64,000 nt of DNA from Amphirosellinia nigrospora (taxonomy: Eukaryota > Ascomycota > Sordariomycetes > Xylariales > Xylariaceae): positions 4,549,974 to 4,613,973 of the forward strand of contig SCHM01000004.1 in assembly GCA_004123355.1 (NCBI GenBank), given 5' to 3'. Position 1 is the stretch's first letter, and the number at the start of each line of letters is the position of its first letter. The translations under genes and the position numbers were made by a program. Below are positions 30,968 to 55,888 of this stretch, piece by piece. The notes below the pieces were generated by a model, which was given only the letters and a program-made list of their open reading frames with translations, had not been told where the DNA came from and did no database searches.

Positions 30968-32520
30968 GGTGTCGTCCGATTCTCTGTTCAATTGCAAGAT
31001 TTGCGCATCCGAGTCTGTAGTTGCTGGCGTATAGATAATTGGCGATGGAATGTGATAGAGTGGAGAGCTTCTTGTCGTTATGGTGGGCTGTTGAAAGCTT
31101 GACGTCGTGTGCCTCTACTATGAGGTAGAAGCTGTCTTGGGCGCCTATCAAAAAGTTTAGAGGAGCTTGGGGCACCTGGAGGTGGCAGGGGTTGAGTCTG
31201 GGCTATCTGGGGAAATAGCCACCAACTCCTTCGGGCTAGGTATTCGTGCCACCATCCCCACTTAGTTCAAAGGTATCTGAGGGGTCAATTTTGATACAAA
31301 CATAGAAGCCAATAACAAACCATCTATTAAAATATCAAGTTCTAGCTATTTCCAAAACACAGTCAACTGTGTCTAGACGTATTATCATACAAAAAATCCT
31401 TGTAAGTTCTCCAATTAAGGATCAAGTGAATAACAACTAAAGAGTAGAGCGGTGGCCGGTGCGGGGTATTGGCAGCCCCGCAGCGCCAGCTGGTGCTTAG
31501 GAGCTCTGGATGTTGATCTACTCGTACCTTCGTAATTAAAGCTATGTTTAATTTCATGCAGTTTTTAAATTCGACGAATCAGGCCTAATGTACGCTGATA
31601 TGTATGAAGTCTGAGACGATGATTGCTTGATGATCTCAAAAACCTTTTTAGGATCATATCAGTGTAGGTACGTCAGATCTGATATTCGAATATCATTTCA
31701 CTGTTAAACATATGGCCGACTGAGAATGAGCCCTTCATCATCTCGCTCGCCTCCTCGAGAATAATCGTACCAGAGAAGAGGCCGTCGAAGCATTGCTGTC
31801 ATACTAAGTCTGAGCTGAAAGTCGGATCGGTTTGCCAAGTGAGCTGGTAGGACTCGAGATCACAGCAGCTTTCGCGTTGACGATTATGTATGTTGTAACA
31901 GGCAGTAACGTGACATCTCCTGGGCATTCGCCGACTTGATGCTGATACGAGTTGGGGCTGGGTGGGCTGTAGGGGCTGAGCTCACATCGTTGATATATTG
32001 CTTTCCAATGCAGCACGACAATGCAAGACGCAAATACGACGATAATAACAGTAGCGAAGGGCCTAGATTTACCCGGCCGCAGGATGGCGCAGGTACCTTA
32101 CATCGCCTAATACGTTCAGTGCCGGAGCGGCACTCTTTACCCGACATCTGGGCTCATCTCATGGTACTCCATCGTGAGCCAATCGCCATGCTGACGGCCT
32201 CCAATGATCGGCCCTGTACAGGAGCGAGTGAACTGGCACCATCGATCGGTTCGGGCGATTGATTAAGTTTGCCTAACATGTAATAACACTTTCCCATCCA
32301 CCAAGAGGAACCGCCGCCGATTTGCGGGAAAAGCTTGCAGGTTCCACTACCAGGCGTAACATACCATATGAGGTAACTCCTGGACAGCGAAATAGCATTG
32401 GGACTGCGTAATGATTTGCCTTAAATGTCACGCAGAGCCATGAAGATATTTTTTGAGGACATCATGTCTTCTCCTTCCTTGATGCTCGTGGTTGAGCGAA
32501 GCTAACATATTCGGCCCATC
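30968..32520. other. Intergenic
   Basis: Divergent region between PAM17 (-) and the GH2 gene (+). The frame at 31936-32262 lacks any family signature. No RNA gene seen. Confidence 0.45.
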
Positions 32521-35228
32521 ATGAGAGCTTATAACCTATTAGTGCTGTTGTTGGGAGCTGAAGCAACTAAGGCTGCTTTACTGCTTTCAAAGCCTGGTGG
32601 CTCGGCAATTATCCCATCATGGGATCTCCAAAGTTCTGCCAAGGTTGGCAACAATCTTCAGGCATTGTCCGAAATCGGTGTTGATACATCGTCATGGTAC
32701 CACATCGACAGCTCTCGGTGCACTTTAATGGGATGTCTTCTGCAAGCAGGTGTCTACCATGAAGATGAATTGTTTCAGTCAGACAACCTAAGGAAGTTCG
32801 ATGCTAGCCAGTTTCAAGTTCCATGGGTATATCGAAAGGAGTTCAATCTTGACACCCAACCTGGCAAACACTATTTCCTACAGACTCATGGCATCACTTC
32901 CAAGGGCGACATATTTATCAACGGAAAACAAGTGGCAAACAATTTGACACAAGCAGGAGCTTACGGCGGCCACGAATACGATGTATCCCAGATGGTGGAT
33001 AAACACAACGCCTTGGTAGTACGCGTCCATCCCACGAATTATAACTATGACCTGGCTTTGGGTTTCGTTGACTGGAATCCATATCCGCCCGACAATGGAA
33101 CCGGGGTCTGGCGAAACATTGAGCTAAAGCAGACTGGGCCTGTGGCATTGGGGCCTTTGAGAGTCACAACCCAAACCGACTTGCCAAACAACACTACTGC
33201 CAATGTCACGCTGAAATCAGTGGCCCGAAATTTGGAGACGCACGAAGTTACTGTTGAGTTAAATGGTGAAGTGACATCGGAATGCGGTCAAAGCTACCTC
33301 TGGAAGCAGGTTGTAAAACTAGGCGCATTAGAGTCTAAGGAGGTGGTGCTGACGAGGACATTGGAAAACCCTAGGATATGGTGGCCAAAACAATGGGGCG
33401 AACAATCATTGTATACAGGCCAGATATCAGTATCGGTAAATGACGGTGTATCTGATGCCGTTAACGACACATTCGGTATCCGTCAGGTCACGTCGCAGGT
33501 GAATTCTCATGACGACATCATATTCTATGTTAACGGACTCCCTTTTCAAGTCATTGGCGGTGGTTATTCAGCCGACATGTTCCTGCGCTGGGACGACGAG
33601 AAGTTTACCCAACAAGCTCAATTGATACTGGACCTCGGTGGCAATACGATCAGGCTTGAGGGGAAGAACGAGCATCCGGAACTTTATAAGATCGCGGATA
33701 AATTGGGATTGATGGTTATCGCGGGTTGGGAGTGTTGTGACAAGTGGGAGGCTTGGTCTTACAATGAAGACTTAGCCGTCAAGTCTGAGTGGGCAGAAAA
33801 GGATTATGTCATCGCCAATGCGAGTATTAAGCATGAAGCACTCATGCAGCAAAACCACCCAAGTATGCTCGGCTACCTCGTAGGAAGCGATTACTGGCCG
33901 AACGACCGCGCGGCGGGAATATAGTGAGTAATTCCCTAGCAACTCTCATCCACCATCAAAGTATCATGCTTGAGTGATGGTAACTAATTCGAGTACTACA
34001 GTGCCTCCTCCATCAAGGAATCAGGTTGGGAAATCCCAATTGTTGCTTCCGCTTCGAAGAGGGGCTATCCCAAAATCCTAGGACCTTCCGGAATGAAAAT
34101 GGACGGCCCTTATGACTGGATCCCGCCTAATTATTGGTATGATGTCGAACCATATGAAGACCGACTCGGAGCCGCATTTGGGTTTGGATCTGAGCTTGGT
34201 TCAGGTGTTGGAACACCTGAAATCAGCAGCCTAAAGAAATTCCTATCCAAGGAAGACCTTGATGACCTGTGGAAAAGTCCGAATAAGGGACTTTATCATA
34301 TGTCTACTAATGTCTCCTCGTTTTATGATCGAAAGATCTATAACGACGCCCTCTGGGCGCGTTACGGTGCGCCGGTATCTCTAGATGACTATCTTCTGAA
34401 AGCTCAGATCATGGACTACGAAGCGACTCGATCACAATTCGAAGGTGTGTCGGCTTTTTGGAGTAAAGAGCGACCAGCAACCGGACTTATTTACTGGATG
34501 TTGAATAATGCATGGCCGAGTCTACATTGGAACCTGTTCGACTATTATCTCCACCCGGCGGGATCCTATTTCGGGGCTAAAGTTGGTGCTAGGATAGAAC
34601 ATGTTGCTTACGATTACGTTAACCAAGCGATTTATTTGATCAACCATTCTATTGATAGAAAGGGTTCAAGGACGATCTCCGTAGATGTGATCGACAAGAA
34701 TGGAAAGTCACTCTATAAGACTGCGAAAAGCGTCGAGACTGAACCGAATACGAGCCGCAACGTTCTTGATCTGACAACTCCATTGAAAGCGATAAGTGAT
34801 ATTGTGTTCCTACGCATCACGTTAGAAGATGGCAAGACTACACTAAGTCGGAACGTTTACTGGCTCTCGAAAGAGCTGGATGTCATGAGCTGGGAGGATT
34901 CCGACTGGTACTTCACTCCGGTTACGAAATATGCGAATTACACTACCCTGGACAAACTAAAAAGCGCAAAGGTCTCAGTGTCCATTCAGGCTTCAAAGTC
35001 TAGGGATGACAGCAATGTGATACTCGAAAATAAATCGACCGTCCCTGCATTTTTCGTCTCGCTGAATCTGGTAGACAAAGCCGGCAAAGACGTCCTCCCA
35101 GTATTTTGGTCGGACAACTACGTCACCCTCTGGCCACACGAGAAGCTGGAGCTGAAGGTCCGGGGTAAAGGGCTGCGGCGATACAAGTGAATGGGAAGAA
35201 CATTGAGCGCGCCAAGGCCTCGATTTGA
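32521..35228 (+). CDS. GH2 exo-beta-D-glucosaminidase, secreted
   Basis: Removes GlcN from chitosan ends (CsxA/GlsA-like, EC 3.2.1.165). Exons are 32521-33923 and 34002-35190 or beyond; the 78-nt intron starts GTGAGT and ends CTACAG. A signal peptide (MRAYNLLVLLLGAEATKA) is followed by the sugar-binding jelly-roll (VPWVYRKEF, GDIFINGKQVA, PYPPDNGTGVWRNIEL), an Ig-like domain (NPRIWWPKQWGEQ) and a TIM barrel (GNTIRLEGKNEHPELY, GWECCDKWE, VGSDYWPND, GPYDWIPPNYWY, FGFGSELGSGVGTPE). By analogy with CsxA, the Asp of VGSD and the Glu of GSEL are the acid/base and nucleophile. C-terminal Ig-like domains follow (VLPVFWSDNYVTLWP). As written, translation stops at 35190 after 863 residues; one base more near 35168 would give the family ending AAAIQVNGKNI and stop at 35228. 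Confidence 0.9.
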
Positions 35229-37098: not shown

Positions 37099-39274
37099 CT
37101 AGTAGCCTATTGTCTCATCAATATTGCTTGCTAGCGTCGGATCGAATAGATCGTGGTCGTGGTACCCCTGGAGAAAATAGACTGACGGGGAGAGGGGTAA
37201 GTTCATAGAGTGCGTCCAGCAGTTTGCGTTTGAATCGCAACCATCATCATCCGTAAGGCGTTCAGCTAGATTGGTTGTAATGCCTTTTGCGCTGATGGTA
37301 ACAATACCGAGGAATGGAACTTTTATGCGGACACTACGCCGTGAATTTGAACTATCTGGGGTCGTGGCACGAGGCGTTATGGTATCGCTCGATGCAGCAA
37401 CTACATCTGCCTCGATTGCGGATAGACATCTCAGAATCGCAGATGCTTGCTGCAACAAGGTTTCGTCGCTGTCTGCTTTACTAGTCTCCAGTAGGAGCCT
37501 TATGGTTTCTTCTACCGTCGCGCGATCGCTCAGGCGCTGATGGGCGAGAGGGTCTGTCCTATTTGTACCGCGTCGGGCCCTGACAATATGCGCCAAAAGT
37601 AGGGCAAGACAGGCCACGAAGGCGCTAAAATCTATCATGCGACAACAGAACGGGGCGATGCGCATGCAGCGAAGTCGGATGTACCGATCAAGAAGCTCGC
37701 GGCTGGAATTTAGGCATGTGGTCTGTCCGGCATTGTCTAGATGAGCCCGACGACCGTCCAGAATGGATGGTAAGTGTAGAGTTATAAGGAGGTTGTAATG
37801 GTTGATCTGAACAAGAATGCGTCCCACATCCTCGAGATTTCTGGTAGTATCAACTCCCTTGCTTTGAATTGCGTAGCTAGCTCGCGGAATCAGCCACCAC
37901 TCAGGGGGAATACTTTGGACTGCGTTTTGAAGCGCAAGATCAATACTCCGAGTAAAGTCATCGTCTGGAGGGTGGCTAGACTGTGAGGATCGTGCGGCCA
38001 TTATGCCCAATATGTCATAATGTTGGCGTTCAAGCTGGCCTGTAGCACAATCGTCGGGCATCTTGGCTTGCGACGCGAAATGTAGATTTTCCGCTGTGCC
38101 TGGAGGAAGCCCGAGAACAAGAGAGAGGTACCTATCTTGCCCGACGATCCGATACCACATCATGGAAGGCAAGGATTGCGATTTAGGGTCCAAGACTGGG
38201 AAGCCAGACATTCGATCATCGTGAAAACCCATAAGTTGAGCTAGGCCGATGGCTCGTCTGAACGTAAGCCATGCCCGACGAAGATCACCGGCATTAATGA
38301 AGAAGACAGCCTCTAAAATGAGACACTCTAGACCTTCAAGAGACTGTATCAACGCCTCATTGCTTGTTACTAGCCTGGACGCTATATTTAAGTAGCGAGT
38401 CATTGCTATAGTAGGAGAGCAGCCTAGGTTTAACGAACTGGTATCAAAGGTAGACGGGTGAAGATTTTGGATCCCATGCGCGAGATACAGTAATTCACGG
38501 GCCAGTAATACTGGGTGATCCGTGGGCTGAGGTAGTCTTGCTAGTTCGGACGCAGGTTGCATATCACCAGAGAATAGCCTCTGATAAGGCAAGGTAAAGA
38601 ATTGAAGGAATGCAGGCGTATAGCTTGCTCCGATTATGAGATTGGCGTCACGCTGGGATGGTAGCGAAGCATACAGCACACGGCTGAGATTCTCATTCTG
38701 TCGTGCACAGGGGCTGGGCGAGATTCTCATGTCAACACGGGTGGGATGCTCGTTCGAATCAACCTATACATGATCATACCTAAGATTAAACACTCAATAA
38801 AGAAGAATTCAAAGTAGTTCTTACTAAAGCGCTGTCCAAGAACTGCATGCTAGGATCTCGGCTCCTATTACTGCTACCAACTGGAGCTCGAAATGATACG
38901 TCATTGTCAACGGGATCGAGGACAGCGTTTTCACACAAGGTCTCTAATAACTCCGTTGGCGAATCGAAGTAAATTTCATTGTCCGCGGCTATGGGCTCGT
39001 GGCTTTCAGTGTCATAACTTGGATCGTCAAACTGTTGCATGATGCAAGTTTTCCCTCGACGCTGGCAAGACACACAGACACGGCTTTGGCTCAATGCAAA
39101 ATGACAGCGCTGCTTTCTCCTCTTGCCTGCGTTATTTAGGATATATGTATAAAAGATCATGGTGTTCAAGGCCAATAACTTACATTCCCAACAACTCGTA
39201 GTGCCTTTCCGGATCTTCCTTCTGCCTGTGACCGACGGCCTCGGGTGGGCTGCACCCCGTGGAGGATCAGCCAT
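37099..39274 (-). CDS. Zn2Cys6 transcription factor (regulator 1)
   Basis: Exons are 39184-39274, 38825-39126 and 37099-38763, joined by 57-nt and 61-nt GT..AG introns; the spliced frame is 685 residues and free of breaks. The binuclear cluster is split by intron 1 right after the second Cys: TTSCWEC | KRRKQRCHF...CVSCQRRGKTC, spacing C-x2-C-x6-C-x9-C-x2-C-x6-C. The middle region has the fungal-specific TF domain pattern (LECLILEAVFFINAGDLRRAW, AIGLAQLMGFHDD, MMWYRIVGQDRYLSLVLGLP, CRMIDFSAFVACLALLLAHI). It lies beside SDR and ALDH genes whose shared promoter carries repeated TCCGCCGA sites, so it is a candidate regulator of them (inference). Confidence 0.88.
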
Positions 39275-40130
39275 GCTAGTATACTCTCTAAAGAATGGAA
39301 AATTCGGTATCGCAAAGCAGAATTGAGGCTAGCTTGAATGTCAATACTATTCTCGTCCTCTAACCAGCTTTTTAGAAATTGGAGCGCGCCGTTCTTGATG
39401 AAAGCGTGAGAGTTGTTGACAGCGCGCCTAAAACGCGTTCAACTCGCGAAATCACGTGACCAATACGCACAAGGGTAGGGAGATCGTAAGCATGAGAAAG
39501 TTTAATGCTATTAATTGTATTATCAATCTTTAAACTGGATATTACGGGTTCCGTGACATAAATCATACCGAGTTCTTCTTTTAGTGTAGCACGGATTGAT
39601 GATCAAGGGTTTGGAAAGAGATAAAATTTACTATAGAACCAAGGGTGCCGTGGAGATCTATCTCCAGGCATAACATTTCCAGACCTTATACACTCCAATA
39701 GCCTCGTATCTGCTTCCAAAACCTTGTGCCTATCCCTATAGCTTGGTAAGTTTGTGCTTCCGGAGTCTGACTTGTCTCGGTCCTCGGTATAGGTTTTGAT
39801 GTACTCCTCGGCGAAGGCGCCGGGACTCATACGATCTGCTATATGTAAGCCCGTTTTCGAAGCTTGTGATCTAGATCCGTGTAACATACATCCGACTAGA
39901 TTCCGAGACATATATATGCAGAAGCATATTGCATTGTGTCATGAAGCCAGACTATCACGAAGCCACGAAGCCACGAAGCCACGAACAAAGAGATTATTTG
40001 TATATAGCCAAGTTACATCTACAGAGGTAGTTTTAGAGACCTTCGCGCAACAACAAGTATAGATGACCTACCCCATGTATCACAGGGTACCTGACACATT
40101 GGGCTAGTGAGCTAGATAGTAGAATACACA
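39275..40130. other. Intergenic between regulator 1 and SDR
   Basis: One minus-strand frame (39603-39911, 102 codons) has plausible protein composition (DRHKVLEADTRLLECIRSG, RHPWFYSKFYLF) but no family I know. An 8-bp tandem repeat lies at 39956-39985. No TCCGCCGA copy is present here. Confidence 0.4.
39956..39985. repeat. Short tandem repeat, CACGAAGC x3.75
   Basis: Perfect head-to-tail copies of CACGAAGC. Intergenic; probably a slippage microsatellite. Confidence 0.9.
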
Positions 40131-41001
40131 TTATGGTGCTCCTTCTCCAACAGGGATATTTACGCCATTAACATGAAGCGAAGACTCGCTCAGTAACCAG
40201 ACAATAACTCGCGCGACATCCGAGGGGCTCAACATGATCGAATTGACACCAATCTTCTGTAGGTTCTGCTCCACCTCTTCCTTTGACATATTTCCAAAGA
40301 ATTCCTTCGTCATGGGGTATAGGTGTTGCCTAGATTTCACTCTTGTTAGCCAAGTCTCACTTGAACATGACGACATCCAATCTAAACATACCAGGAGAGA
40401 CAACATTGGCACGGATACCGAATGAATAGACGTCCTTCGCAACGCAACTCGTAAAGTAAGCACATGCAGCCTTTGACGTGCCGTATGCGAACGCGGTCGG
40501 CCCTCGGAGGAGTGACCCGAGGCTAGACACATTGACGATCGCTGGGTGACTATGCGTAGGTAGCTCGAGCATGGCGCGTACTTGAGCACGTGTACAATAC
40601 ATTATGCCGTTAATGTTAACACCGAGAACGCGAGTCCAGTCTTCGTTTGTCTCGGCGAGTATAGCCGGTCGTTCGGTGGAGAAGGCCGGTTGAGAGAGTC
40701 CAGCGACGTTGGCGGATCCGTGCAAAGCGCCAGACTCCGCGACAATCTTCTCAATCCAAGCATCGACTTGGGCCGCATCGGAAACGTCGACCTTGGTAGT
40801 AAAAAGTCGAGTATGTGGGTTAATGGCGGCAATTTCGTCTTTGATCTGAGAGAAGTTGTCGGTGTTCCAATCTGCAACCCAAATGGTGGCCGCCCCTCGC
40901 TCTGCAAGGAGACGCACTACAGCTGCGCCTATACCCGAAGCACCTCCAGTAACACTGAAGACACGAGAGCTAAGAGTATCTGCTGTCGTTTGGAGTGGCA
41001 T
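40131..41001 (-). CDS. Short-chain dehydrogenase/reductase
   Basis: NAD(P)-dependent classical SDR. The preferred start is 41001 (MPLQTTADTLSSRV), which places the cofactor motif TGGASGIG about 18 residues in; the frame is open upstream to 41094. Further motifs: ADWN (acidic residue after beta-2, suggesting NAD preference), NVAG, catalytic Ser in IVNVSSLGS, and YGTSK with Tyr/Lys. A 62-nt intron (40330-40391) follows RANVVSPG; the next exon gives NTYTPMTKEFF only if the C run at 40314-40317 (minus strand CCCC) has one more base. It ends SSLHVNGVNIPVGEGAP at 40131. Divergently transcribed from ALDH across a 545-bp promoter. Substrate unknown. Confidence 0.88.
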
Positions 41002-41150
41002 CTTGGGGAAGTTTGCTATTACTGCTTCTGGCGGGAAAACGGTAAGGGGCGAGGCGTAAGCGAGTTTAGTGTTAGAATTCAAACTACATGACACGACGGC
41101 AGACTTTAAATCAATTTCTTCCCCATATCTGGTTTCGTATCAAGCAGTGT

Positions 41151-41387
41151 TCCGCCGATTTGAGTGCTATTTCAGTCGCTGATGACCTACCATGCTTCCT
41201 CCGATGATTGCTCCGCCGAAACCTACTCCACCTCACATAGCGATCGGGCTTGACCGTCGGCGGAAATATCCATAAGCTAGGACGGGTTATACCAACGTCT
41301 GGTATTTTACAAGTAATCTATTCCAACACTTCCTCCGCCGAGAAAATCCTCCGTGTCAACGATTCATTCATCCTGATCTCCCGCCGA
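41151..41387. promoter_or_regulatory. Array of five CCGCCGA sites in the SDR/ALDH divergent promoter
   Basis: Exact TCCGCCGA at 41151-41158, 41212-41219 and 41334-41341, its reverse complement TCGGCGGA at 41257-41264, and a variant CCCGCCGA at 41380-41387. CCG/CGG triplets are the half-sites of Zn2Cys6 factors, and one such gene is in the same locus. Co-regulation of the two divergent enzymes by that factor is inferred. Confidence 0.65.
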
Positions 41388-41546
41388 AACTAAGGCGGTA
41401 TTCCCGTTAGAAATGGTGTCCATCTAGAGCTGAAAATCCTCTCTATAAGAAGCTTCGAGCACCCTACTTAGAGTCATTCAGTTGTAGACCTTCGTAAGCT
41501 CCCCTCATATCCGTGCTACTTCTTTCATTCTTTTCGACTGAGCAGA

Positions 41547-43352
41547 ATGTCCCCATCATTTTCGAACCCGAGTCTGGACCTTGAGCGGTATCCAATCCCT
41601 ACCCGGCCGTTTATCGGTGGTAAATTCGTCGACAGTACTAGCCACGATAACCACGTTTTAATTTCTTCTGTCAATGATGCCATCGTTACTAAAGGTAAGT
41701 TAATCTTAAACGACCTTAGAAGTGTTTCTTGGAATACCGCGGCTGACAGTCCCAGAACTCCAATGGTCCAACACACAAGACGTAAACATCGCAGTCGAGG
41801 CAGCTGAGGAAGGATTGAAAGCATGGCAAGCTATGAGTGATGTGAGTTTGAAAAGCCGACCTGAACAAATAATCAAGGGAAACTAACTCGATTTCATAGG
41901 TGGCCCGAAGAGACGCTCTGATCAACTACGGCGACTTGATCCGACAGAACAAACAGCGCCTTCACTGGCTAGAGGGGGTGCTGGTGGGCAAAGATGCCGG
42001 ATTTTGCGCCTTCGAAGTTGACTTTGCTGCCGATCTCTTCACTTGTATGGTTGACCTACAGACTCTCCCCCCACCTGCGCAATGTTGGATACTAAATTAA
42101 ACCCAAGACTACGGCAACCTGATTGATAAGCTCAGCAGCGACGTTTTAGTATCTACAAATGAGAATCTTCGCGTGTGTTAAGCTTCTTTATTCTCCTTCC
42201 TCTATCCTTCATATCCATGTCCACATGCTGACCAGCAAATAGTACACTCTCCACCAACCATGGGGCGTCTGCGCCGGGATCGTGCCATTCAACGGGCCGA
42301 TTATAACTATGGCTATGAAACTCGCACCGGCACTCGCATGCGGAAATGCCATGATCATAAAAACAAGCGAGACGAACCCGTTCTCGACTTTTTATATGGC
42401 ATCTCTAGCCAACGCAGCCGGGATCCCTCCCGGCGTAGTAAACTGCCTGACAGGTGGTGCAGAAGTAGGCCACGCCCTAGCCGCACACATGAAGATTCGT
42501 AAGATTAGCTTCACTGGGAGCATTTCGGTCGGGAAGCGAGTACAGATAGCAGCCGCCGAATCGAATCTGAAGAGCGTGACGTTGGAGCTCGGCGGCAAGT
42601 CGCCCGTCATCGTATTCGCCGATGCAGACGTCGCCAAGGCTGTCGCCGGGATCATGACTTTCCTCGTGATGAATGGTCAGGGATGCGCCCTAGGGACTCG
42701 TGTCTATGTGCATGAGTCAGTCGCCGACGAGGTCATCTCGGAAGTCAAGGATCGCGCTGAGATGCACGCCAGCACACTCGGCGACGATCCCTTATCGGAG
42801 ACCACTCAGTCTTCGCCATTGTATCATCATCGCCAGAAGGACACTGTACTTTCGTACATTGAATCCGGTAAGGCGGAGGCGACTTTGGTTTGTGGTGGCT
42901 CGTCTATGGGAAACCAGGGCTGCTATATTCAACCGACAGTCTTCGTCGATCCGCGGCCTGGTGCTCGTATAGTCCACGAAGAGATATTTGGTCCCGTGCT
43001 TGTCATCACGCGGTTCAAGACTGAAGAGGAAGCGCTAAAGATGGCGAATGATACCGAATTCGGGCTAGCTGCTTCTGTGTATACAAAAGATATTGCTCAG
43101 GCGCTGAGGCTCTCTCGGCTCTTGGAGGCGGGTAGCGTCCAAATCAATGGTACGGGTGGCCGAATCCGAAGATCCCAATGACTGGCTGGAAGCGTAGGTT
43201 CTCCCTCCCTCTGTTCCTTCTTGGCGCATCGGTTGAGTTCTGAGACGAAGATAATGACTAACTCGAGTCTAGAAAGTGGACAGGGAATTGAGAACGGTAG
43301 GGAGGCAATGTTAGATTGGATGCAGGTCAAAGTGGTCTCGCTCAGTGTATAA
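41547..43352 (+). CDS. Aldehyde dehydrogenase
   Basis: NAD(P)-dependent ALDH oxidising an aldehyde to an acid. The start ATG 41547 gives MSPSFSNPSLDLERYP, then RPFIGGKFVDS. Introns lie at 41695-41749, 41842-41899, about 42174-42242 and before the last exon (about 43190-43275), all GT..AG. Conserved blocks: QPWGVCAGIVPFNGPI, APALACGNAMIIKTSE, GVVNCLTGG, ISFTGSISVGKR, VTLELGGKSPVIVFADAD with the general-base Glu, catalytic Cys in NGQGCALGTR, EEIFGPVLVI and NDTEFGLAASVYT. The end reads NPKIPMTGW, then after the last intron GQGIENGREAMLDWMQ, stop 43350-43352. The frame breaks around 42050 (near a possible extra intron) and 43163 (one base short in front of NPKIP). Confidence 0.85.
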
Positions 43353-44762
43353 ATTCGTGTCCAATACGTATTACGATTGTTTCGCTGTTAAGATAGATAG
43401 GGCAAATGTCTTGATATTGAGTTTGTAGAAAATTGTATTAGCAAGACATTATTTCGTAGGTCATTGTTGTCAACGGAAGCAAGGCAAGCCTTCACGCCCA
43501 CAGATCTACGTACGCGAGTGTAATATAGGAAAGAGCCGATTATCGGCCACTGAATTGGCGCGGGTGTCTATATGCTTCGTTCACTCGCCCCTTTGTCAGG
43601 TCCCCTTACCTTCCCTAGGACAATATCTAGCACATTCATAGGTTATTTTACGGAAGATAACTTTGTGATACTGCGGCGGCGCACCCAAATGTGTTTTACT
43701 AAGACTGACTCGACCACATTGTTGTTAATGGCGAGTGGCAGTCACTAATTTTCTGAGCGACTACCCTTCTGTCTGCCTATAGCGTCAGGTTGTAAACTCT
43801 TTCTGGTAAAAACGAGGCTGTAGGGGAAATTCTCACCTAGATTTTATATAGTATCAAGCGAATTCAGTGTGGTTACTTATTGCCTATATTCGGTAGAAAA
43901 CTACCGTTATTGTGTTTATTTTCCATGCTATATTATCTCATTGGCTGTGTATATCAGGGGGCTGGGGCTGAAAGACCCTTTACGCAATATGACCCGTAAC
44001 AAAGTAGTTATAATGATACCCTCCCACAATTCTCCCTTGCGCCCCTATCAATCCAACTTGCTTTCAAGTAAAGTTTTCTTTAAAAAAGCACCTTCTTTTG
44101 AGCCGCATGTGCAACCACTTGAAAAGAATTGCATCGGCTCTTGAAACGCGACTGAGCAGAGCTATAGACCAATAATGAAATTCCCACCGCGTCATCATCA
44201 CATCTACTGTCATAGTCCCACCCTTAATATCAATAGTGGCCTATGCGGCGATCCAAGGGAGTACAATTTAAGTCGAAACTTTACACCAAGCCAGCCTCAT
44301 TTACTTATTTGCTACCTTAGCTGAGGCCACGTCATTCAACTTGTGGCTGGTCATGTCTCTCTTCTGGGGAAAAAAGACGTACCACGCCTTCACCTACGGG
44401 GGAATATAAGTATTGTTTTAGAGGGAGCGGGCAACGAAATACGAAATACTAGGTTTGGGGTGGATGGGATATACGGCTAGAGGAAGATTAGAGGAAGCTG
44501 CTCGTCAACTGGAAGATGGACTTCAACACCTCTGGGATGTCTTACCGCCGGCCGGCATTCCCGTGGCAAACAATGAGGGCTCGACCAATGACTGTCGTTT
44601 GTCAAGGAAGTTGTTTTGGGCCCCCTTTCCTGGAACGGGATTGCGAAGTTTCAAATGCGCAGCACGATTGATTTGACCTCCTTCCATTTAACACCTATGC
44701 CAAACGATTTGAAGAGGAATTCCATCCCAAGCAAGTATTTTAGGCTCCCATGATATTTTATG
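43353..44762. other. Intergenic
   Basis: No recognisable gene; the frames at 43869-44144 and 44455-44676 have no family features. Confidence 0.45.
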
Positions 44763-45375
44763 TCATTTCGTCAACTCCTTGGCCTCCAGCATGTCCCATG
44801 TCGGTACCTTCGTCATGTCATAGTCTCCTGTCCGTCAAATCGATGATGATCCTTCTTGTGCCCAATGTACCACATACCACGTCTCGAATCGTTTTCCAAT
44901 CCCCGCACAGGTACCTAAAGCTCCGCCATCCTCCAGCGTTCTCTCCACCGCTCTTTCACCCAGCTAAAACAGTCCCAACCAGGCGTGTCCGGCCGGGTAG
45001 GAACGTTCGTCAAATGCGATTAAAGACGTCTGACATCTATGATCTTGCCCAATGACTATACGGACGAGCAACATTTCGTTCGGCTGAAGACCAATTTTCT
45101 GTTCGTCATAGGTCCAAATCGGGGCTGGGAGGAGCTCGCCAGAATCTGTCGTCCTTTTCTCTTTGACACGGTAGCGGATGCCTTGGCCATTTTCTTTGGG
45201 CTCGCTTTTGGGGCCGACAATGAGAGCCCAATAATACCTAGTACGTGTGTTAGTAAATGCCTCCCTTGCAACGAAGCTCGCAATTGGAAACCGACGCATC
45301 TTCACCTCCCGGCAAGGTTGGCTGCCCTCCCCTGACGTATAGCGCAACGTAGAGGCGATCTTTGTCCGAAGGCAT
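44763..45375 (-). CDS. Conserved fungal protein of unknown function
   Basis: The start ATG 45375 gives MPSDKDRLYVALYVRGG; a 58-nt intron (45238-45295, donor GTCGGT, acceptor TAG) joins GGEDA to YYWALIVGPK. Next are KENGQGIRYRVKEK, WTYDEQKIGLQPNEMLLVRIVIG, then (frame steps near 45020 and 44930) PGWDCFSWVKEA and DGGALGTC, and finally HRFDG...DYDMTKVPTWDMLE to stop 44763-44765. I recognise this order from a widespread filamentous-fungal family with no assigned role (possibly the one named DUF6914, from memory). It is soluble, with no signal peptide. Two or three 1-nt breaks interrupt the second half. Confidence 0.65.
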
Positions 45376-48300
45376 GTGAACGTAGGCGCGTGAATGAATG
45401 AAAAAGTAGAGAATACGACACGAAGAGTTCGTTTATGATAATTCTAGTACGCTCAAGCTAGCAACTGCTGCGCATTTATAACTTAACCGGTAACAAGGGG
45501 GTAACTCCGATTGCGGCCACAGCCTGACACTACAGCTGTCTGTGTAGCAGGTGAATGGGGCTCTGCTGCGGTTTTGAAACTGCCAAACTCGTGTGACTTG
45601 TGTTAAGGCTGCAAGTAATTAGACGGCTTTAAACAGCCGACTTGATAAACAGGCGGAGCGAGTATTGCACCATAAGCCTCGACCAATAGTGAGTAGTTAT
45701 TTAGATTAAGGGAAGACATCTTGACGTGTTATTTCTATGTCAGATGTGGGATCTTGGTATACCGGATCGCGTTCACCCTGAAAATGGCTTGATATGTTAT
45801 CCGCCTGTCCACCTACTAAGTCCACTTCACAACGCTGTGTTACGGTTGGCTTACTGCGTGTGACAGCCAGCTCATCAACTGCTGGGTATTTATTTTAGGC
45901 AGGTTCGGCCCTTTCACATGCCCTAATTCTTATTTACCGATTACGACCAAATCCGAACTTCTCTCTCTGGGTCCTACCGTCCCTGTTTCATCGGGTCAGA
46001 ATTTTAATTACATCGAAAGTTCAAAAGAGGGATTGCCAAACTGTGCCGCCGGAAAGGGCCAGTTGTGCAACTGTTTAGGGTCACCGCAGTAACCATCAGC
46101 GACGCTGAAGGCTACACAGCAGTCTAACCTTTCTTCTAACGCATAATAATTCCATAAAAGTGAAACATCACTAATATACGAATTCGTCTTTTACCCAGGC
46201 GTATGAGGAAATACTATAGTCCTGCGAAGGCACATTCCGGCGAACCTGGCCCTCCGGAGAAGGGGTCTTGATATTTCAATAGTGGATGTCAAGATTACTT
46301 ATGACTAGCCGCCGAGATAGCGAACTACTTAGTGATCTTATTTCGGTGTGTTGAAGCAGTGGGAGTGGAACTCCGAGAGCGCTGGCCAATAGTGATCGAA
46401 GAACTATCTATGTGAAGACATGAGTGGGTGAAGGATAAGGTTTGAAACAACACAACTAACTTTACACCCTTTACTCGTACTTAGCTTAACGACAGCACAT
46501 TTCAATGTATTTTGAAGAAAAAATTTATATTGCGTCACGCTTTGCAGAGTATCCAAGTGAATAAGTATAGCTAGTAAAAATAACAGCGAGATCACCACTC
46601 AGGCCTCTTTATGATCCCTGTTAGTTAATACTAGACAACTCAAGCACATGCAGACGTCGAACTCGTCAAGAGTATTTTTCTTTTCCAGCTGTCGAAATGA
46701 CTCATCTTCATCCGAGACACTACCGACTATGCGCGCACACTGACGTTTTCGCTCCAGGTGGCATTAAGCCGGGTAGTATCTTGGTAGGCATGTGATCTTT
46801 CGTGATGCCAGAATTAGTGCGCCGCGTTGTAGCTGATCTGAGACAGCCGCCAGCCCTGATCACCCAACCAAGTATTTCAAGGCTATGTCTCCGTAGCCAA
46901 CATCATGTGACGATTTAGAGGAAAATACTATAGAGTTTCACGAGAGAACAGCAAATGAAAGCTATCATGTCACTGCAGCCCCCACAGTACTTTTACAGTC
47001 CATAGGCGGTGTCAGGACCTCTGTGTGAGTGTTCCATAGGGTACAGTATGACATCTATTGTTGCGCAAATGTCCTAATACGTAGGTGCCACGCTCAGCTA
47101 TATACAAAGACCTAAGTTCCTTTGTCAGTAACAGTGAGGCTGTACTAGTGCTACGAGGGCGGCGATAGTACTGCCGAGGCGGTGAGTCCGACAGGCGGTC
47201 GATTCAAACTGTGCGAACATTCTCGAATCCGAGGGTTTCCACTAGCGCTCCCCTTGCATTGTCAACTTTTATAAATCATCCTCAGAGCTACACCGCATCT
47301 TCTATATTCCTTAGACGTCATACTTAGCTTGTCTTGCCTCAGAAGCCGAGCTAAGCTGGAAGATTTTGCCCTGAGTCGACCGAGCAAGGATCCATACATC
47401 GGCGCCGATGCCCAACCCGCGACTTCATAGGGTGGTCGACTTTAACTTTGCTTGGCCTTGAGTTTCATCCCATTACCATCATCTTCATAAGTCACTATCA
47501 TATCTCTTGCAGCCTTGTCTAGATATATGTGATGGTAACTATGCCTCAGCCACGCTTGTGTTTCAGCGTCAACCAAATTGTGAGGGTAGCGACCGCATCC
47601 GTGTTTCAAGGCTTGAGCCCAAGCTTACGGATTGTAAACATGGAATATATAAAACACCAAGATTTATCACAATGCTGCCAGAGGCGCTGTGATATAGGGC
47701 CACTCGATGTGTATTCGTGTAACCACTCTTGGGCTGTACAGATCTGCATACTAGAGTTTGAGGTATCTCATATCCATTTCGTCATACATGGAGTTACCTT
47801 TTTACAAGTTGGTGAAAGATTGTTGCTCTGATACATAGCTTGTACCACGGGCAGCATTGCTAATGAAGCGATGTCACCTACTAGCGGGAAAATTCGTAGA
47901 AACATAGATGCATCTAGAAATGATCCCACACACCGCTAGGCCCAAATCCAGACGTCGTAAATTGGGTAAATATCGTGACAGAAGAGGTGTGGCACCGCTA
48001 AGGAGTGACTCGCGGCACCGATCAACGCCTGGTATTCATTGATGATACTAATCAAAAGCCGACCCAGGAAGCCCTGTATGTATGTACCTGTCCATTTGGC
48101 AGGAGAGAACGGTTATCCCAAACTCCCGGAATCCAGACCATTCAGCACTCGGTGCAGCTGTTGTAAAGGCCATCGCCCGAGCTTGGCATTGTTTGTGTTG
48201 GCACCGTCGGATTGCCATTGAAATGCATCGTATATAGACCCGAGCGAATATGTCTTGAGCGATTCATCGTCGACCCATCATCAATTTGAGCAGATAATAG

Positions 48301-48835
48301 GTTCTTAAAATCTCCGCTCGGTATTAATGGAGCAGCGAATTACGGAGGTTCCGATTCACGCAGCCTTCAGGCAAAATCAAGGCAACCCACCCTCTCTCCC
48401 CCGCGCCCCAAGGCACACCTCCCCCTTTCCACCGCTCTTTCATTGATGATGCACATTCTGGTGAGTATTAGCGACGGAACTCGACCTCTGCATAGCTGCA
48501 AACGAGCAACTTAGACCATGTTCGTCGACATAGAGATACTTGGTCGAGATAGCAAGGCGATTTGTTGGAGATTTAGGGTCTTTCATATCGAAATGTAAAA
48601 TCACCAATGCCGTTTTCAGCAGCATGCAACCAACCGAGACTCACTTAAATGCCAAACGTTTATAAAGAAACTCAAGTGCATTGACTACATATTGGCCTAC
48701 TTAAGGCTTTATTGTCTGATCTCACATATCATACATCTCATCAAACTCATCTGTGCAACAACATCATGGCAATCGTTGGTAATCCATGCTGTACTAAGTA
48801 GGAGATGATTAGTGAAACAACCAGGAGTTATTCCA
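45376..48835. other. Gene-poor 3.5 kb
   Basis: No family signature in any frame. It contains dispersed repeat copy B (47009-47126). Confidence 0.5.
47009..47126. repeat. Dispersed repeat, copy B
   Basis: Degenerate second copy of the element at 25169-25285, same orientation, with matching blocks GTGTCAGGACCTC, ATCTATTGTTGCGCA and GCTATATACA. Likely an old LTR or MITE-like fragment. Confidence 0.5.
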
Positions 48836-49826
48836 TCACTTGTTGGTATTGGTGGCAATAGCAGCAGTCGTAACGGCGATCTGCTCCTAGAATAACAAAA
48901 TATTAGTTAACCTCGCGTCTCTTAAGTTCAATAGCCCTTTTAAGCTCACGAACGGGTTCCAATAGGCCGGGGGACTGGGGGGTGTTAAACTAACCTTCAG
49001 GTCTCGCAACTGGAACATGCCAATGGTGACCGCGTCTTGAAGCTGATTGACTGCCAGAGAAGAAGAGTTAGAATTTGTGTCCGACATCAATAAGCCAACA
49101 CAATCTTAGGGGTATCCGCGAGCATGCATGAGGATAGTAATGAACGTAGGAGCGGAATCCATGCAAAACCGAAGGATAAGTATTTGAGATATACATACCG
49201 TAGCCCTGAAGCTCTTCAGCCCTTTTGGCCAAAATATCAAGCTTGATCTTGTTCTGATTCTCAATTGGTTAGTTAGCTGTACAACGTGGGATGGGAAAGC
49301 TAGGTTGCAATCGTGAAAGGTGCTGGTCCTTACAAGCTGCTCTTCGTCATACTTCTCCTCTGCCATCATTTCTTGATCTGATGTTGCTCCCTCAGGTTTT
49401 CGCGCCGATACTTTGGCCGATGTGGTAGTCGTAGTAAGCAACTAATAGTTTAGGTCAGCCCAAGAGATCTCTGAGCCCGCTACTAGGAGTCGTCGACTTA
49501 CGTTGCCTTCAGTCTTCCACATCTTTCTGTCTCTCTTACCGAGAGCGCTTCTGTTCTTCTTCTTCTTCTTGGCACTCAGTTTCTGGCCCAGAGCAATCAT
49601 CGAAGCTGAGGCCATCTTCTGAGTTGGGATGTTCTGAGTTGGGGTCTCCTGGGCCGGGGTGACCTTCTGGCCTGAGGTCACCTTGTACGACGCGGTTTTG
49701 TCCTGGACCACCGTCATCTTCAGAAAATTAGTAACTAACTGCCCGCGACGAGAGGGGGGGTGGATATTATACCGGCATAGTAGCAGGAGATGTAGCACTC
49801 GCCGGTGGAGGCATCATGGATGCCAT
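48836..49826 (-). CDS. Six-exon small coiled-coil protein, orphan
   Basis: Exons 49773-49826, 49502-49717, 49334-49441, 49199-49259, 48995-49050 and 48836-48886 are separated by five canonical GT..AG introns (55-148 nt). Every junction keeps phase, giving 181 residues from MASMMPPPASATSP to ATNTNK. The N-terminal half is Thr/Gln/Lys-rich with a short PTQ repeat (TPAQETPTQNIPTQ) and a basic cluster SAKKKKKNRSALGKRDRK, possibly a nuclear or nucleic-acid-binding signal. The C-terminal half is a predicted helix/coiled coil (QNKIKLDILAKRAEELQG, NQLQDAVTIGMFQLRDLKEQ). No family recognised. The clean five-intron structure in a gene-poor area is the main support. Confidence 0.7.
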
Positions 49827-51573
49827 CGTGTTGATGATTGCTGGCCGAAAGGAAAATGAGACAAGTGGGTAACAAAGAAGAGCACCTAGAGAAGGGAATG
49901 CAGTATGATCTGCAAGATTGTAGTCGGCACCAAAGTCAGATTACCTCAGGTACCTATTGTCTGTGTGTGCTGGTTGTCGGTGCTTTAGGTAAGTAGTAGG
50001 AGGTAGGCAAGAAGAACTCTGCGAGTGCAACATATGTAGCAGAACCAGATGCGCTTTCTAGTAGGACTTAATGTAGATGCCTGCTAGGTGATATGGGGTC
50101 CTATAAACCGTTGCCCAGAAGCCACCTGCGAGGGTAGGTACTTGAGGTATTATGTGCAAGCAGTTGCCTGTCTCGCGTGGTTACAGGGTATCTGGGCAGT
50201 TGCAGATATAAAAGCACCTGCCTAAGAACACGTGCTTCCTAGATATAGATATTTAGGTACGTAGGTAGGTCTTGAAACGGATCGCAAAGGCAACTTCCAA
50301 TCGATCCTTCCTCTCTCTAGAGTCTGACTTAGTCCAACTGAGGTATTAAAATACTTGGATACCTCAAGTAAGTAGATGTGACAAACTGCATATATGCAGA
50401 TTGTATTCTGTCGTGATAGGCACTGATAGGTAGTAGATTTTGTTTTATTCTCACAACACAAATCTCCGCCTCTTTCTTTACTTCCTGCTCATAGAGACTA
50501 GATGCATTAGGCCTTTCAAGTTTGTACCTTTATTGAAGTTTAGCTTTCTTGAACTGAGGGGCAACTTGAAACTCAACACTACACATCTGAGCTAATATGA
50601 TTGCTTTCAATACCTATTGCAGCAGAATATAACATGGTTGAGTACTCCCTTGAGATTTGAAAGCAATTTTATTCTATAATGTGATTTGGGAGGTGGTAGG
50701 GTGAGATCTTGAGCTCGGGCATAGAAGCATAGGAACAGGGTATTTCTGTGTCTCAATCTAGTGTCAATGAGCTACTCGACAAAGAGCCACAAGTAAGGGA
50801 CAGTTTAGGCTAGGAGAGAAGACTTCTCTGAATCAACAAGACATACACATTACTCAAACTTCCATGATGCCACATTGAGTATTTGTACTAGTAACGAACA
50901 GTCTATGTTATCCCCTTGAGTACTGAGTTGAAGCGCTTGTTGCTTTTCAATCCTTAACCAAGTTTTATTGTATCTTCTTGAGTAATTCTACGGGCTGCCT
51001 ATGATTACCCGTTATGTTATGGGACCACATAATCCACGCGATAATCTTCCTTGTCTGTCCATACTGGCTCCGCAACAACCAAACAAACGCCTGGGAGACA
51101 TAGCAGATAAGTGCAAGGGCAACTATTCCCCAATCTTGGCTCTGGAGTGGCGGGTCTAGATGCGCTCCAATCCAACGCAATGAATCTCCAATCGTGCTTA
51201 ATTAGTCCGAGGGCCGAATCTCCGCAAGTCTTCTGGGGAACGTCCCGCATTCGACACCCGATCTGGCCTTCCCAGCGGCTTGGTCCTTGAATACTATCGT
51301 TAATATTATCAAGAGGTAGTGTCAAATCAGACATCATGCTTCTGATAGGAGTAGGCTAAGATAATGGCCAAGAAAGGCGAGTTGCTTTACCCCAAGGGCG
51401 GTAATATGTTACGCGTGCGTGTTGCTTGTAATCCAAGGGGCCCGGCAAAAGTGAAGATTACCCACACGTGTATTTATAAGAACAGGAGCCATTGCAGTCA
51501 GAATCTCTAGAGGTTCTTTTTGTGCACAGACAATGATATTATCGATTTTCAACATCATCGGACACTGCACTGA
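49827..51573. other. Intergenic
   Basis: Repetitive GTAGGTA / AGGTAC-like short motifs occur at 49930-50270; no gene. The last 100 bases are the promoter of the GH93 gene. Confidence 0.45.
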
Positions 51574-52906
51574 TTGATGATGCGGCTTCTGCAGAGTCTC
51601 GTTAGCCTAGCAGGGCTTTTGTCGTCGCAAGTGTCGGCGAACCCAACCCCTGTTGAGAAAAGACAAACACCAACGATCTCGAATCGCGCCATCTTCTCGC
51701 CACCTTCTAATGCTGGGTGGGTTGATCCTCGCGTACTGTACGCCCGCGCCGTGCAGTTGAAGTCGGGCGCCTTGATCGCTACTTGGGAGAACTACTCGCC
51801 GGAGCCACCGAAGGTGTACTTTCCGATCTACAAATCGACGGACGGAGGCGCTTCTTGGACCCAGATCAGCAAGGTAGATGACACGGTTAACGGATGGGGG
51901 CTTCGGTACCAGCCTTATCTATACCAGTTACCGGTCGCCATCGGAAGCTACCCGGCAGGCACTCTACTCGTTGCCGGCAACAGTATTCCGACAGACCTTA
52001 GTAAGACTAAGATAGATATCTACGCCAGCAAAGACGATGGCGTTACTTGGTCTTTCGTCAGTAGTGTAGCTAGCGGCGGAGTGGCGCAACCGGTGAACGG
52101 ACAGACACCGGTCTGGGAGCCACTACTCATGTGAGTTAAAATGCACGACCAATCCACAAATACATGCTTATGATATGGTGCTATAACAGGGTTTATAACA
52201 ATCAGCTCATCTGTTATTATTCGGATCAGCGTGACAGTAAATACGGCCAGAAGCTCGTTCACCAGACAACCACAGACCTGAAGACATGGAGCGCTACAGT
52301 CGACGATGTGCATGATACCAGTAGCTATGCAGCCAGACCCGGAATGCCTGCTATCACGAAACTTCCCGATAATAACTATATATTCGCTTACGAAGTAGGT
52401 TCACTGTGTTCATATTCGTTTGGAATCACGATGTTGCTATCTATCGATACGCAATTGAAGTTGTGCTATCCTCATTAGAATAGGGGCTCACTACTGACAC
52501 GGTCAATCTATAGGCTTGCGGGAGCGATGGATGCCGCGTTCATTACAGATTGACACGGAGCCCTCTCGATGTTCTCTCTGCACCAACTTACACGTTGAAG
52601 TCCACGGCTGGCTCTACCACGACCAGCTCACCGTTTGTGGTCTGGTCCAGTGTTGGCGGAACCAACGGTACCATCATTCTCAGCGGTGGCAGTGCATCGA
52701 ACATCTTCGTCAACCAAAAATTAGGTGACCTCAATTCATGGGTTGAGCACACCACTCCGCAACCTAATGCGTATGCGCGGAGCATGGTGCTTTTCCAAGA
52801 TGACGATAGTAAGATGCTGATCATAGGTGCCGGTCGCTTGCCACCTAGTAGTACGAACTATGTCAGTGTCAGTGTTATTGACTTGAAAGCCACGATGAAC
52901 ATATGA
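51574..52906 (+). CDS. GH93-type secreted exo-arabinanase (sialidase fold)
   Basis: Six-bladed propeller glycosidase, probably releasing arabinobiose from arabinan (Abnx/Arb93A-like). Exons 51574-52130, 52190-52394 and 52514-52906 (introns 59 and 119 nt, GT..AG) give an unbroken 384-residue protein. A signal peptide (MRLLQSLVSLAGLLSSQVSA) is followed by a dibasic KRQ processing site. Asp-box motifs are KSTDGGASW and SKDDGVTW; family blocks are GWGLRYQPYLYQLP, AGTLLVAGNSIPTD, PVWEPLLMVYNNQLICYYSD, RPGMPAITKLPDNNYIFAYE, TSSPFVVWSSVGG and YARSMVLFQ. The presence of all blocks and a secretion signal supports an active cell-wall enzyme. GH93 rather than another BNR family rests on my memory of fungal sequences. 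Confidence 0.85.
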
Positions 52907-53428
52907 GGAAGGACAGCTGCAATGCTAACTTGGCTGTTACTTACCCTGTACCTGGGTCAATATATTATACAAGTAGTACAGGTATAAACGCTTGACATCT
53001 AATATCAGATCTTGGCGAGTTTGATGGGAAGTGAAAGTATTGAAGTAAACTAGTTCGTTACTCTGGGGAAGACCTAAGATGCATCACCTCACTCGCATCT
53101 CAAAATAACCATGATGGCCAAGGAGAGTGAGCGTTACGAGGCGACCTCACGGCAAATTGTTGTATCATTCGATGCACTCATTCTTGACAGGATGTTTGGG
53201 AGTGACATGACACAGGCCAACCCAGTTTCGGAGAAAGGTCTCTTCCTTTCCATAAATCCGGAATCTTGGCGTACAATAATAACGTGAACTAACTCCGCGC
53301 CCCCGAAAAATCCGGGATTACGTAGAGAGTATAATTGGCAATGCATCGTCGGGTATGCATACAGCTAACTTCTAGCTAAAGTAATAGTCAATTTTGCATT
53401 TCTGTCATTTATATCCGATGCTCATCAA

Positions 53429-53866
53429 GTGAGCAACATGTCTTCACTACGCGACCAGCTGTGGAAGACAGCGAAGGCCGCATTCGACGAATATGGTCAA
53501 ATGACGGCCGAATCTGTCATCGCCTACCGAAGCTCCGACTGCGTGCATCGCCTGTTTCCCGCCTCGGCTGGGGTCCCGGACCGTACTAATAAGGAATACT
53601 CTGATTTCGTGATGGAGCTCAAGAAGACCGTTCCCAACCTACGCTTCATTGTCCTCGACGACTTTGGACCGATTATAGATGAGACTAATCGCCAGGTCTT
53701 GGCCCACCTGAAATCTGCGGGCGATACTCCCTACGGACCTTGCGAGGCCGAGTATTTCATGTCTCTTAAGATGAATGAGGACGGAACACAGATCGTGGAG
53801 TTTGTCGAGTTTGTCGATACTGCATATACACTGGAGTTTATAAAGAAAGCCGGGTTGGAAGTTTGA
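53429..53866 (+). CDS. SnoaL/NTF2-like small protein
   Basis: Single-exon 145-residue frame starting MSNMSSLRDQLWKTAKAAFD. The N-terminal helix plus EYGQMTAESVIAYRSSDCVHRLFP and the alternating strands ending TQIVEFVEFVDTAYTLEF fit the alpha+beta cone of SnoaL/NTF2-like proteins, which in fungal clusters act as dehydratases, cyclases or binding proteins. No signal peptide. It sits 396 bp upstream of the acyl-CoA dehydrogenase in the same orientation. Enzymatic role unknown. Confidence 0.7.
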   Translation: MSNMSSLRDQLWKTAKAAFDEYGQMTAESVIAYRSSDCVHRLFPASAGVPDRTNKEYSDFVMELKKTVPNLRFIVLDDFGPIIDETNRQVLAHLKSAGDTPYGPCEAEYFMSLKMNEDGTQIVEFVEFVDTAYTLEFIKKAGLEV

Positions 53867-54262
53867 GGTGGGCTACCCGTTGGTGCCGAATCCAGCTCAA
53901 CCACCTGTACGAGTCCTGCTTCCCCGGAAAGAGACTTGCTGCTGAGCTAGAAACATGGCATATTGGTTTGAGAAAACAGTTGTACAGAGATCAATTTACC
54001 TTGCTGTCTTTCTTCATTTTAGAAACTGGAGTACTTGGCGGGCAAGCACAGGCACAAGCAGCGCTGAACTGCTGCCAGTATTACCATATTTGGCTAAGCC
54101 TCTTAAGGCACGTATAATAACCGATTCATGTCGGCAATATGCTGTGAACCCCAATATAGTAGACCGTTGGAGATACACACAGTTGACCCAACATCTCATG
54201 TTCAGACATACGACTTTTCGTTTTTCTTCTACCAAATGTTCCAGCAGAGCCGATGAGTCATA

Positions 54263-55600
54263 ATGTCTCGGTCAATCACGAAATTGCTGTCGAGGCGCAG
54301 ACCTCTTGCGCAACCCCCAGCGTGGCGAATACATCATGGGCTCTACAATCGTCCATTTTCGGCCACCACCTCAAGACGGATAATGGAGACCACGGGCTTC
54401 TCGGAAACACAGCTAACAGTCCGAGAAGCAATCAACCGAGTCTGTTCCGACTTCCCAAATACCTATTGGCAAGAACGAGATCAAACCGAGCAAGATCCCA
54501 AAGACTTCCATGCTGCGTTAGGCCGGGATGGCTGGCTTGGCATAGCTCTCCCGGAAGCCCTTGGAGGGTCGGGTTTGGGCATTTCGGAGGCCACCATCAT
54601 GATGCAGACGATTACAGAGAGCGGGGCAGGTATGGCGGGAGCACAGGCGATTCATGCCAATGTGTACGCGACACAGCCTCTGGCCAAGTTCGGCACGAAA
54701 GAACAATTAGAAAGCACCATTCCCAATATCATTTCGGGCAAATGGCGCGTCTGCTTCGGCGTAACAGAACCGAACGCTGGCTTAAACACGCTGGGCCTAT
54801 CTACAGTGGCAAGTAAGCAACCAGACGGTTCTTACCGTATTAGCGGCCAAAAGATCTGGATTACTTGTGCCCAAGTTGCGTCGAAGATGATCTTGCTGGC
54901 AAGAACAACCCCGCTTGAGGAGGTTAAGAAGCCTAGCGAAGGGTTGTCTCTGTTTTGCATCGATCTAAACCGCGACCAGCCGGGCTTGGAAATGCGTAAG
55001 ATTAGGAAGCTAGGGGGAAGAGCTGTAGATGCGAACGAGGTCTTCTTCGATAACTACACGATCCCAGGCAACAGCCTCATTGGACAGGAGGGGCAGGGTT
55101 TCAAGATCATACTACATGGCATGAATGCTGAACGGTGTCTGCTTGCAGGAGAAGCCCTTGGCCTCGGGTACGCAGCTCTTAACAGGGCGGCCCAGTATGC
55201 GAGGGATAGAGTAGTTTTTGGTCGCCCGATCGGCCAGAATCAAGCGGTTGCACACCCTCTGGCAGATGCCTATATGAAGCTCGAAAGTGCCAAGCTAGCA
55301 ACGTACCATGCCGCTAGACTTTACGACGAAAGTAGCAACAAAGGAGAGGGTTCCCGCGCCGACATCACCCAGACATCCGTTGGAGTCGCATGTAATAGTG
55401 CAAAGTACATGGCAGCTGAGGCGGCGTTCACTACCTGTGAGAGGGCAGTTCTTACTCATGGAGGGATGGGCTATGCGGCTGAGTATGACGTTGAGAGATG
55501 GTTCAGGGAATGCTTAGTACCGAGGATTGCGCCTGTGAGCAGGGAAATGATCTTAAACTATATCAGCGAGAAAGTGCTCGAACTCCCGCGTAGTTATTAG
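54263..55600 (+). CDS. Acyl-CoA dehydrogenase family flavoenzyme
   Basis: Single-exon 445-residue frame. The N-terminus MSRSITKLLSRRRPLAQPPA is Arg/Ser-rich with no acidic residues, a typical mitochondrial presequence. Conserved ACAD blocks: DGWLGIALPEALGGSGLG, RVCFGVTEPNAGLNT, ISGQKIWITCAQVA, KLGGRAVDANEVFFDNY, GMNAERCLLAGEALGLGYAAL, FGRPIGQNQAVAHPLAD, ERAVLTHGGMGYAAEYDVE (carrying the usual catalytic-base Glu region) and RWFRECLVPRIAPVS. It catalyses alpha,beta-dehydrogenation of an acyl-CoA with FAD and passes electrons to ETF. Substrate chain type cannot be read here. Neighbours suggest a dedicated degradation or modification route. Confidence 0.92.
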   Translation: MSRSITKLLSRRRPLAQPPAWRIHHGLYNRPFSATTSRRIMETTGFSETQLTVREAINRVCSDFPNTYWQERDQTEQDPKDFHAALGRDGWLGIALPEALGGSGLGISEATIMMQTITESGAGMAGAQAIHANVYATQPLAKFGTKEQLESTIPNIISGKWRVCFGVTEPNAGLNTLGLSTVASKQPDGSYRISGQKIWITCAQVASKMILLARTTPLEEVKKPSEGLSLFCIDLNRDQPGLEMRKIRKLGGRAVDANEVFFDNYTIPGNSLIGQEGQGFKIILHGMNAERCLLAGEALGLGYAALNRAAQYARDRVVFGRPIGQNQAVAHPLADAYMKLESAKLATYHAARLYDESSNKGEGSRADITQTSVGVACNSAKYMAAEAAFTTCERAVLTHGGMGYAAEYDVERWFRECLVPRIAPVSREMILNYISEKVLELPRSY

Positions 55601-55771
55601 AAACGCTTGATAACACATTATTTATCAATCTTGCCTTTGCATTTTTATCGGGAGCTGTATCGTTATATTACGTTTGTCCGTCAAAAGTGACATGGCAAGC
55701 TACCTTGGCACGCTTCCGAACCAATTGCCGAACCCCGCCCGCCATGCCACGTGACTGCGTGTAGTGGGATT

Positions 55772-55852: not shown

Positions 55853-55888
55853 CAGAAGACGGCGTCTGGCGCATGAAGTGTCGCTCAC

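Follow-up and report, generated by a model that had tools for sequence, protein, structure and literature searches.

AlcR is a regulator of the Zn2Cys6 class that acts through clustered sites of the CCGC type, its word being CCGCA. In Aspergillus nidulans it is the pathway activator over alcohol and aldehyde dehydrogenases, with alcA and aldA (PMC5795998). TerR of Aspergillus terreus is described as a pathway-specific factor with three CGG-based sites in the bidirectional promoter of terA and terB; it favours a T before CGG and binds predominantly as a monomer (PMC4360782). For Ume6 of Saccharomyces cerevisiae the binding element is URS1, given as TAGCCGCCGA (PMC4288150). Our analysis of a stretch of 64,000 nucleotides from Amphirosellinia nigrospora (the window) revealed a cluster of six short sites in the promoter shared by two divergent genes, encoding a short-chain dehydrogenase (SDR) and an aldehyde dehydrogenase (ALDH). 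The window occupies C6:4549974-4613973, and its introns and a Zn2Cys6 gene are typical of a fungus. The features concerned are the following.

37099..39274, minus strand: Zn2Cys6 regulator of 685 aa with a borderline Fungal_trans match, exons 39274-39184, 39126-38825 and 38763-37099; candidate binder
40131..41001, minus strand: SDR, PF00106 (E 1.2e-36, 126.5 bits), ATG at 41001, one intron
41002..41546, no strand: intergenic region of 545 bp from the SDR start codon to the ALDH start codon, bidirectional promoter according to the gene models
41151-41158, plus strand: site 1, exact TCCGCCGA
41197-41204, plus strand: site 2, variant TCCTCCGA, absent from the sequence-only reading
41212-41219, plus strand: site 3, exact TCCGCCGA
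41257-41264, minus strand: site 4, exact TCCGCCGA, inverted
41334-41341, plus strand: site 5, exact TCCGCCGA
41380-41387, plus strand: site 6, variant CCCGCCGA
41547..43352, plus strand: ALDH, PF00171 (E 9.9e-109, 364.4 bits, main exon) and aldehyde dehydrogenases of the PDB
41547-41694, 41750-41841, 41900-42044, 42108-42172 and from 42243 on, plus strand: the five ALDH exons, in frame from the ATG at 41547

The 237 bp from 41151 to 41387 thus carry four exact copies of TCCGCCGA (one inverted), one CCCGCCGA and one TCCTCCGA. An earlier reading of the letters alone had counted five copies: the four exact words and the CCCGCCGA variant were found where it had placed them, while the total comes to six, the TCCTCCGA at 41197 having been overlooked. 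Read on the opposite strand, the exact sites are TCGGCGGA, with a T and two CGG triplets without a spacer, and site 2 retains one CGG only. When direct CGG repeats with spacers of 0-12 were sought in the promoter, the abutting form was the commonest, at the five CCGCCGA sites; a spacer of 10 occurred at two places, and spacers of 5, 9 and 12 at one each. A pyrimidine stands immediately 5' of the 8-mer in all six sites. Their flanks are otherwise unrelated (one of 50 flanking columns reaches 5/6 identity, with a chance mean of 0.94), and the six sites are therefore separate similar words rather than copies of a longer repeat. The same unrelated flanks rule out tandem duplication as the origin of the array, and its DNA is single-copy in the genome, which rules out a repeat family.

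With regard to the described systems, the likeness to the terA-terB promoter lies in several CGG-based sites between divergent genes and in the T next to CGG (PMC4360782). The consensus of TerR, TCGGHHWYHCGG, however, has a five-base spacer, whereas the CGG triplets of the SDR-ALDH array abut. No strict match to TCGGHHWYHCGG was found in 41002-41546, where a single loose CGG-N5-CGG lies at 41032, outside the array. AlcR resembles the present case in its clustered CCGC-type sites and dehydrogenase targets; yet its system includes an alcA-type dehydrogenase in place of an SDR, and the word CCGCA is absent from both strands of 41002-41546. Neither TAGCCGCCGA nor its core GCCGCCGA occurs in the promoter as an 8-, 9- or 10-mer. 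Since the strict words of TerR, AlcR and URS1 are all missing from the promoter, the array was assigned to none of the three, and TerR appears to be the nearest described behaviour that we encountered. Among the publications listed by a literature search, titles and the beginnings of abstracts pointed to none with TCCGCCGA, TCGGCGGA or a CCGCCGA element as its subject.

Could the cluster be a chance accumulation of a G+C-rich word? Shuffling predicts 1.63 occurrences of the exact 8-mer for the window, where six are present; one shuffle in 100 yielded as many. Across the genome it was counted 617 + 666 = 1283 times in 48,114,038 bases (11 contigs), compared with 1425 for the word read backwards, and hence it is not enriched. 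That fact, together with the choice of the word after looking, speaks for chance. On the other hand, the genome rate predicts 0.0063 exact copies for the 237 bp that hold four. Among 100 order-3 Markov windows not one contained four copies of any non-simple 8-mer in a span of 191 bp, in agreement with the former claim of a density far beyond chance. The Poisson probability of at least four exact copies in the 545-bp gap is 1.8e-9 before correcting for the choice of word and place; a crude correction (about 33,000 possible 8-mers and 117 such gaps), in which the two variants are ignored, brings it to about 0.007. Chance is in our view a very improbable explanation. In the real window 24 8-mers occur four times within 191 bp, and the 23 besides TCCGCCGA all consist of A/T only and lie beyond 61.6 kb. 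The many repeated A/T-only 8-mers at 61600-64000 perhaps mark an AT-rich, repeat-decayed block.

The arrangement of sites was also searched for elsewhere. Pairs of the exact word on the same strand were found at one place for gaps of 5-35 (on C8, in an apparently coding open frame) and at one place for gaps of 36-66, which is the array itself; convergent pairs with gaps of 25-55 and divergent pairs with gaps of 45-75 returned the array alone, and the uniqueness of the array holds for these four arrangements. The corresponding controls with the backward word gave 2, 3, 0 and 0 places. Judged by this control, the genome shows no excess of exact pairs in general (1 and 1 same-strand places vs 2 and 3 in the control). 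The relaxed core CCGCCGA is common in pairs at gaps of 30-60: it gave 51 places, of which two are the array, whereas its backward control gave 30. The clustering of sites in the bidirectional promoter is real and locally unique.

Concerning the two enzymes, the gene models support the earlier description of an SDR (PF00106) and an ALDH (PF00171) that diverge from the 545-bp promoter in which the cluster lies. SDRs, which often act on secondary alcohols, are marked by the signature motifs TGxxxGIG and YxxxK, and the present protein carries TGGASGIG and YGTSK. Five in-frame GT-AG choices for its intron, e.g. 40387-40330, join the C-terminal part, which has a weak PF13561 match below the cut-off; a broken SDR frame is ruled out by these splices. 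In ALDHs the catalytic motifs are LELGG, with the Glu, and GQGC, with the Cys, and both were found. The ALDH frame is, nevertheless, disrupted near 43150: the main exon ends in ...INGTGGRIRRSQ-stop and the conserved tail (GWKQSGQGIENG) lies in another frame. For donors from 43121 on, the GT-AG spans upstream of the tail motif measure 16 to 40 nt and none is longer, which is too short for usual fungal introns. The break, within 42243-43352, may be an assembly error or real damage.

If the damage is real, the array could be a relic that formerly served the gene pair in a locus now decaying. The frame break, the tail in the other frame and the lack of a GT-AG span above 40 nt upstream of it would fit such a history. 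The six sites, however, are still nearly identical, the SDR is readable in frame across its intron, and a single assembly error would mimic the break, so that we give little credence to a relic. As to substrates, none of the 25 NCBIfam models listed for either enzyme reached its cut-off, in searches with queries that lacked the C-termini and therefore scored lower, and the solved relatives of the ALDH (best 60 of 265) are general ALDHs, betaine-aldehyde dehydrogenases and similar enzymes. Neither the SDR nor the ALDH therefore has an assigned substrate. The proposed route from alcohol to aldehyde to acid found no backing here: neither family nor structure scans pointed to a substrate, secondary alcohols are frequent targets of SDRs, and the ALDH has its frame break. 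The closest piece of an ALDH paralogue (63% over 144 residues) is on C6; its two loci (L028 and L039) have no array and carry scattered CCGCCGA, two each, one of those in L039 being TCCGCCGA. The DNA upstream of this paralogue looks like housekeeping genes when the open frames are read.

On the SDR side, the nearest gene in which a domain was recognised encodes a Zn2Cys6 regulator, as had been stated before. After removal of two introns its CX2CX6C-CX2CX6C is complete (SCWECKRRKQRC...CVSCQRRGKTC). Both Pfam scores fall just under the cut-off once the protein is spliced: PF00172 scores 19.7 bits (cut-off 21), and PF04082 (Fungal_trans) scores 22.5 bits, against 23 bits on the exon, which equals its cut-off of 23. 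Between the regulator and the SDR there is a 102-codon open frame (39603-39911) with no Pfam match, and 8-base repeats of the GAAGCCAC type follow one another briefly at 39943-39985, between the SDR end and the regulator start. Elsewhere in the window, a glycoside hydrolase 2 lies in two open frames at 32506-35187, with an exo-beta-D-glucosaminidase Ig-fold domain. At 54257-61319 an acyl-CoA dehydrogenase, a Fungal_trans factor, an MmgE/PrpD protein and a putative cyclase fragment are near one another, possibly as a catabolic or biosynthetic cluster.

We favour, at about even confidence, the explanation that a single pathway-specific Zn2Cys6 activator, most likely the 685-aa regulator, binds the six sites of the array and so co-induces SDR and ALDH from their bidirectional promoter. 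Such an activator would bind the TCGGCGGA-type sites between the two genes, and the bound array would turn both on jointly, activation rather than repression being presumed. The spacing is irregular, the orientation mixed and no second half-site recurs at a constant place, which suggests independent binding at every 8-mer, by a monomer or a compact tandem pair, in which case the number of sites would set the strength. The array would answer an inducer, and the regulator beyond the SDR is the best candidate for its binder. As the array is private to this locus in the arrangements searched, a pathway-specific factor fits better than a general one.

Promoters were further compared by means of a PWM trained on the array, for which the array's own score is circular. 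The null consisted of 193 windows of 550 bp, probably mostly coding, from 15 loci (L023-L029, L031-L037, L039) and from positions 1-36000 and 44001-61000 of the window, and it was set against promoters 328 to 856 bp long. Excluded from it were L001-L022, L030, L038 and the remainder of the window, L001-L009 because they had been retrieved for carrying TCCGCCGA. The regulator's own upstream region holds no good site by this measure (best score reached by 22 of the 193 null windows), a result that lends no support to autoregulation of the 685-aa protein through TCCGCCGA.

The same result speaks for a real operator cluster whose binder is another Zn2Cys6 factor encoded elsewhere, e.g. an Ume6-like one. 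Such a factor is also hinted at by CCGCCGA, the seven bases that the array has in common with Ume6/URS1 and that form the end of yeast TAGCCGCCGA (PMC4288150). Against it, GCCGCCGA of the URS1 type is not found in the promoter, and the base that precedes CCGCCGA or CCTCCGA is T or C, never G, in all six sites. Moreover, one would expect a general factor to have comparable arrays at other loci, but the four exact-pair arrangements gave a single, apparently coding place outside the locus; the array is clustered and private, unlike the Ume6/URS1 system. A binder encoded elsewhere is a real possibility, though on the doubtful side.

The consensus of CreA-type repressors is SYGGRG. The minus strand matches it at 41211 and 41333, where the matches overlap sites 3 and 5, and also at 41226. 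Competition between CreA and AlcR is described in PMC5795998, and would make it conceivable that the array is used or contested by a CreA-type repressor. The overlap involves only two of the six sites, however, and the consensus is short. We regard this carbon-catabolite reading as improbable, and the overlap as a weak lead for glucose repression.

Returning to the pathway-specific activator and its likely binder, the genome holds at least three clear paralogues of the regulator, at C5:1.61 Mb, C1:6.62 Mb (C1a) and C1:11.57 Mb (C1b), and the four proteins have in common RRK(I/V)RKGTxSCWEC(K/R)xRK. The C5 paralogue, 34% identical to the regulator over residues 133-628 and above the PF00172 cut-off with 25.6 bits, is divergent to an epoxide-hydrolase gene (PF06441), with 328 bp between them (C5:1608755-1613233). 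On the other side of the paralogue there is an MFS-transporter fragment. The 328-bp promoter contains one exact TCCGCCGA and one TCCTCCGA (1208 copies genome-wide), for which the joint chance is 7e-5 at genome rates. Its top PWM score was reached by 1, its top-two sum by 2 and its top-three sum by 3 of the 193 null windows, C5 being one of five other promoters scored, post hoc and without correction. The exact site, 13 nt ahead of the ATG presumed there, falls within an open frame and may therefore be coding. As support for binding by the regulator family, these sites are suggestive only.

The C1a paralogue (C1:6619001-6628284) lies back to back with a gene whose product is closely homologous to zearalenone hydrolase (best E 1e-120, to the solved chain 8jlv_B, and 1.7e-114 to 3wzl_A), and an ALDH gene lies downstream of the paralogue. 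Its divergent promoter is marginal by the PWM (top score, top-two sum and top-three sum reached by 17, 11 and 7 of 193 null windows), the ALDH promoter has no good PWM site (141 of 193) and the C1b promoter is unremarkable (top score reached by 31 of 193). It is tempting to regard regulators with RRKxRKGTxSCWEC(K/R)xRK as an uncharacterised subfamily for which abutting CGG-CGG (TCGGCGGA) is a site in its own right. Three or more of its four members in this genome would then be wired to divergent promoters of detoxification or catabolic enzymes (SDR/ALDH, the C5 epoxide hydrolase and the C1 zearalenone-hydrolase homologue); we consider this rather unlikely and put it forward tentatively.

The control of the SDR-ALDH promoter is otherwise ordinary fungal gene regulation of a known kind. 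To our knowledge, the binding words of Zn2Cys6 factors are seldom predictable from sequence. If the neighbouring regulator binds the array, one word, one regulator and two enzymes would offer a convenient way to test which site belongs to a Zn2Cys6 subfamily of which we found no description and, if true, the abutting CGG-CGG layout would be an extra spacing class beside TerR-like and URS1-like sites.
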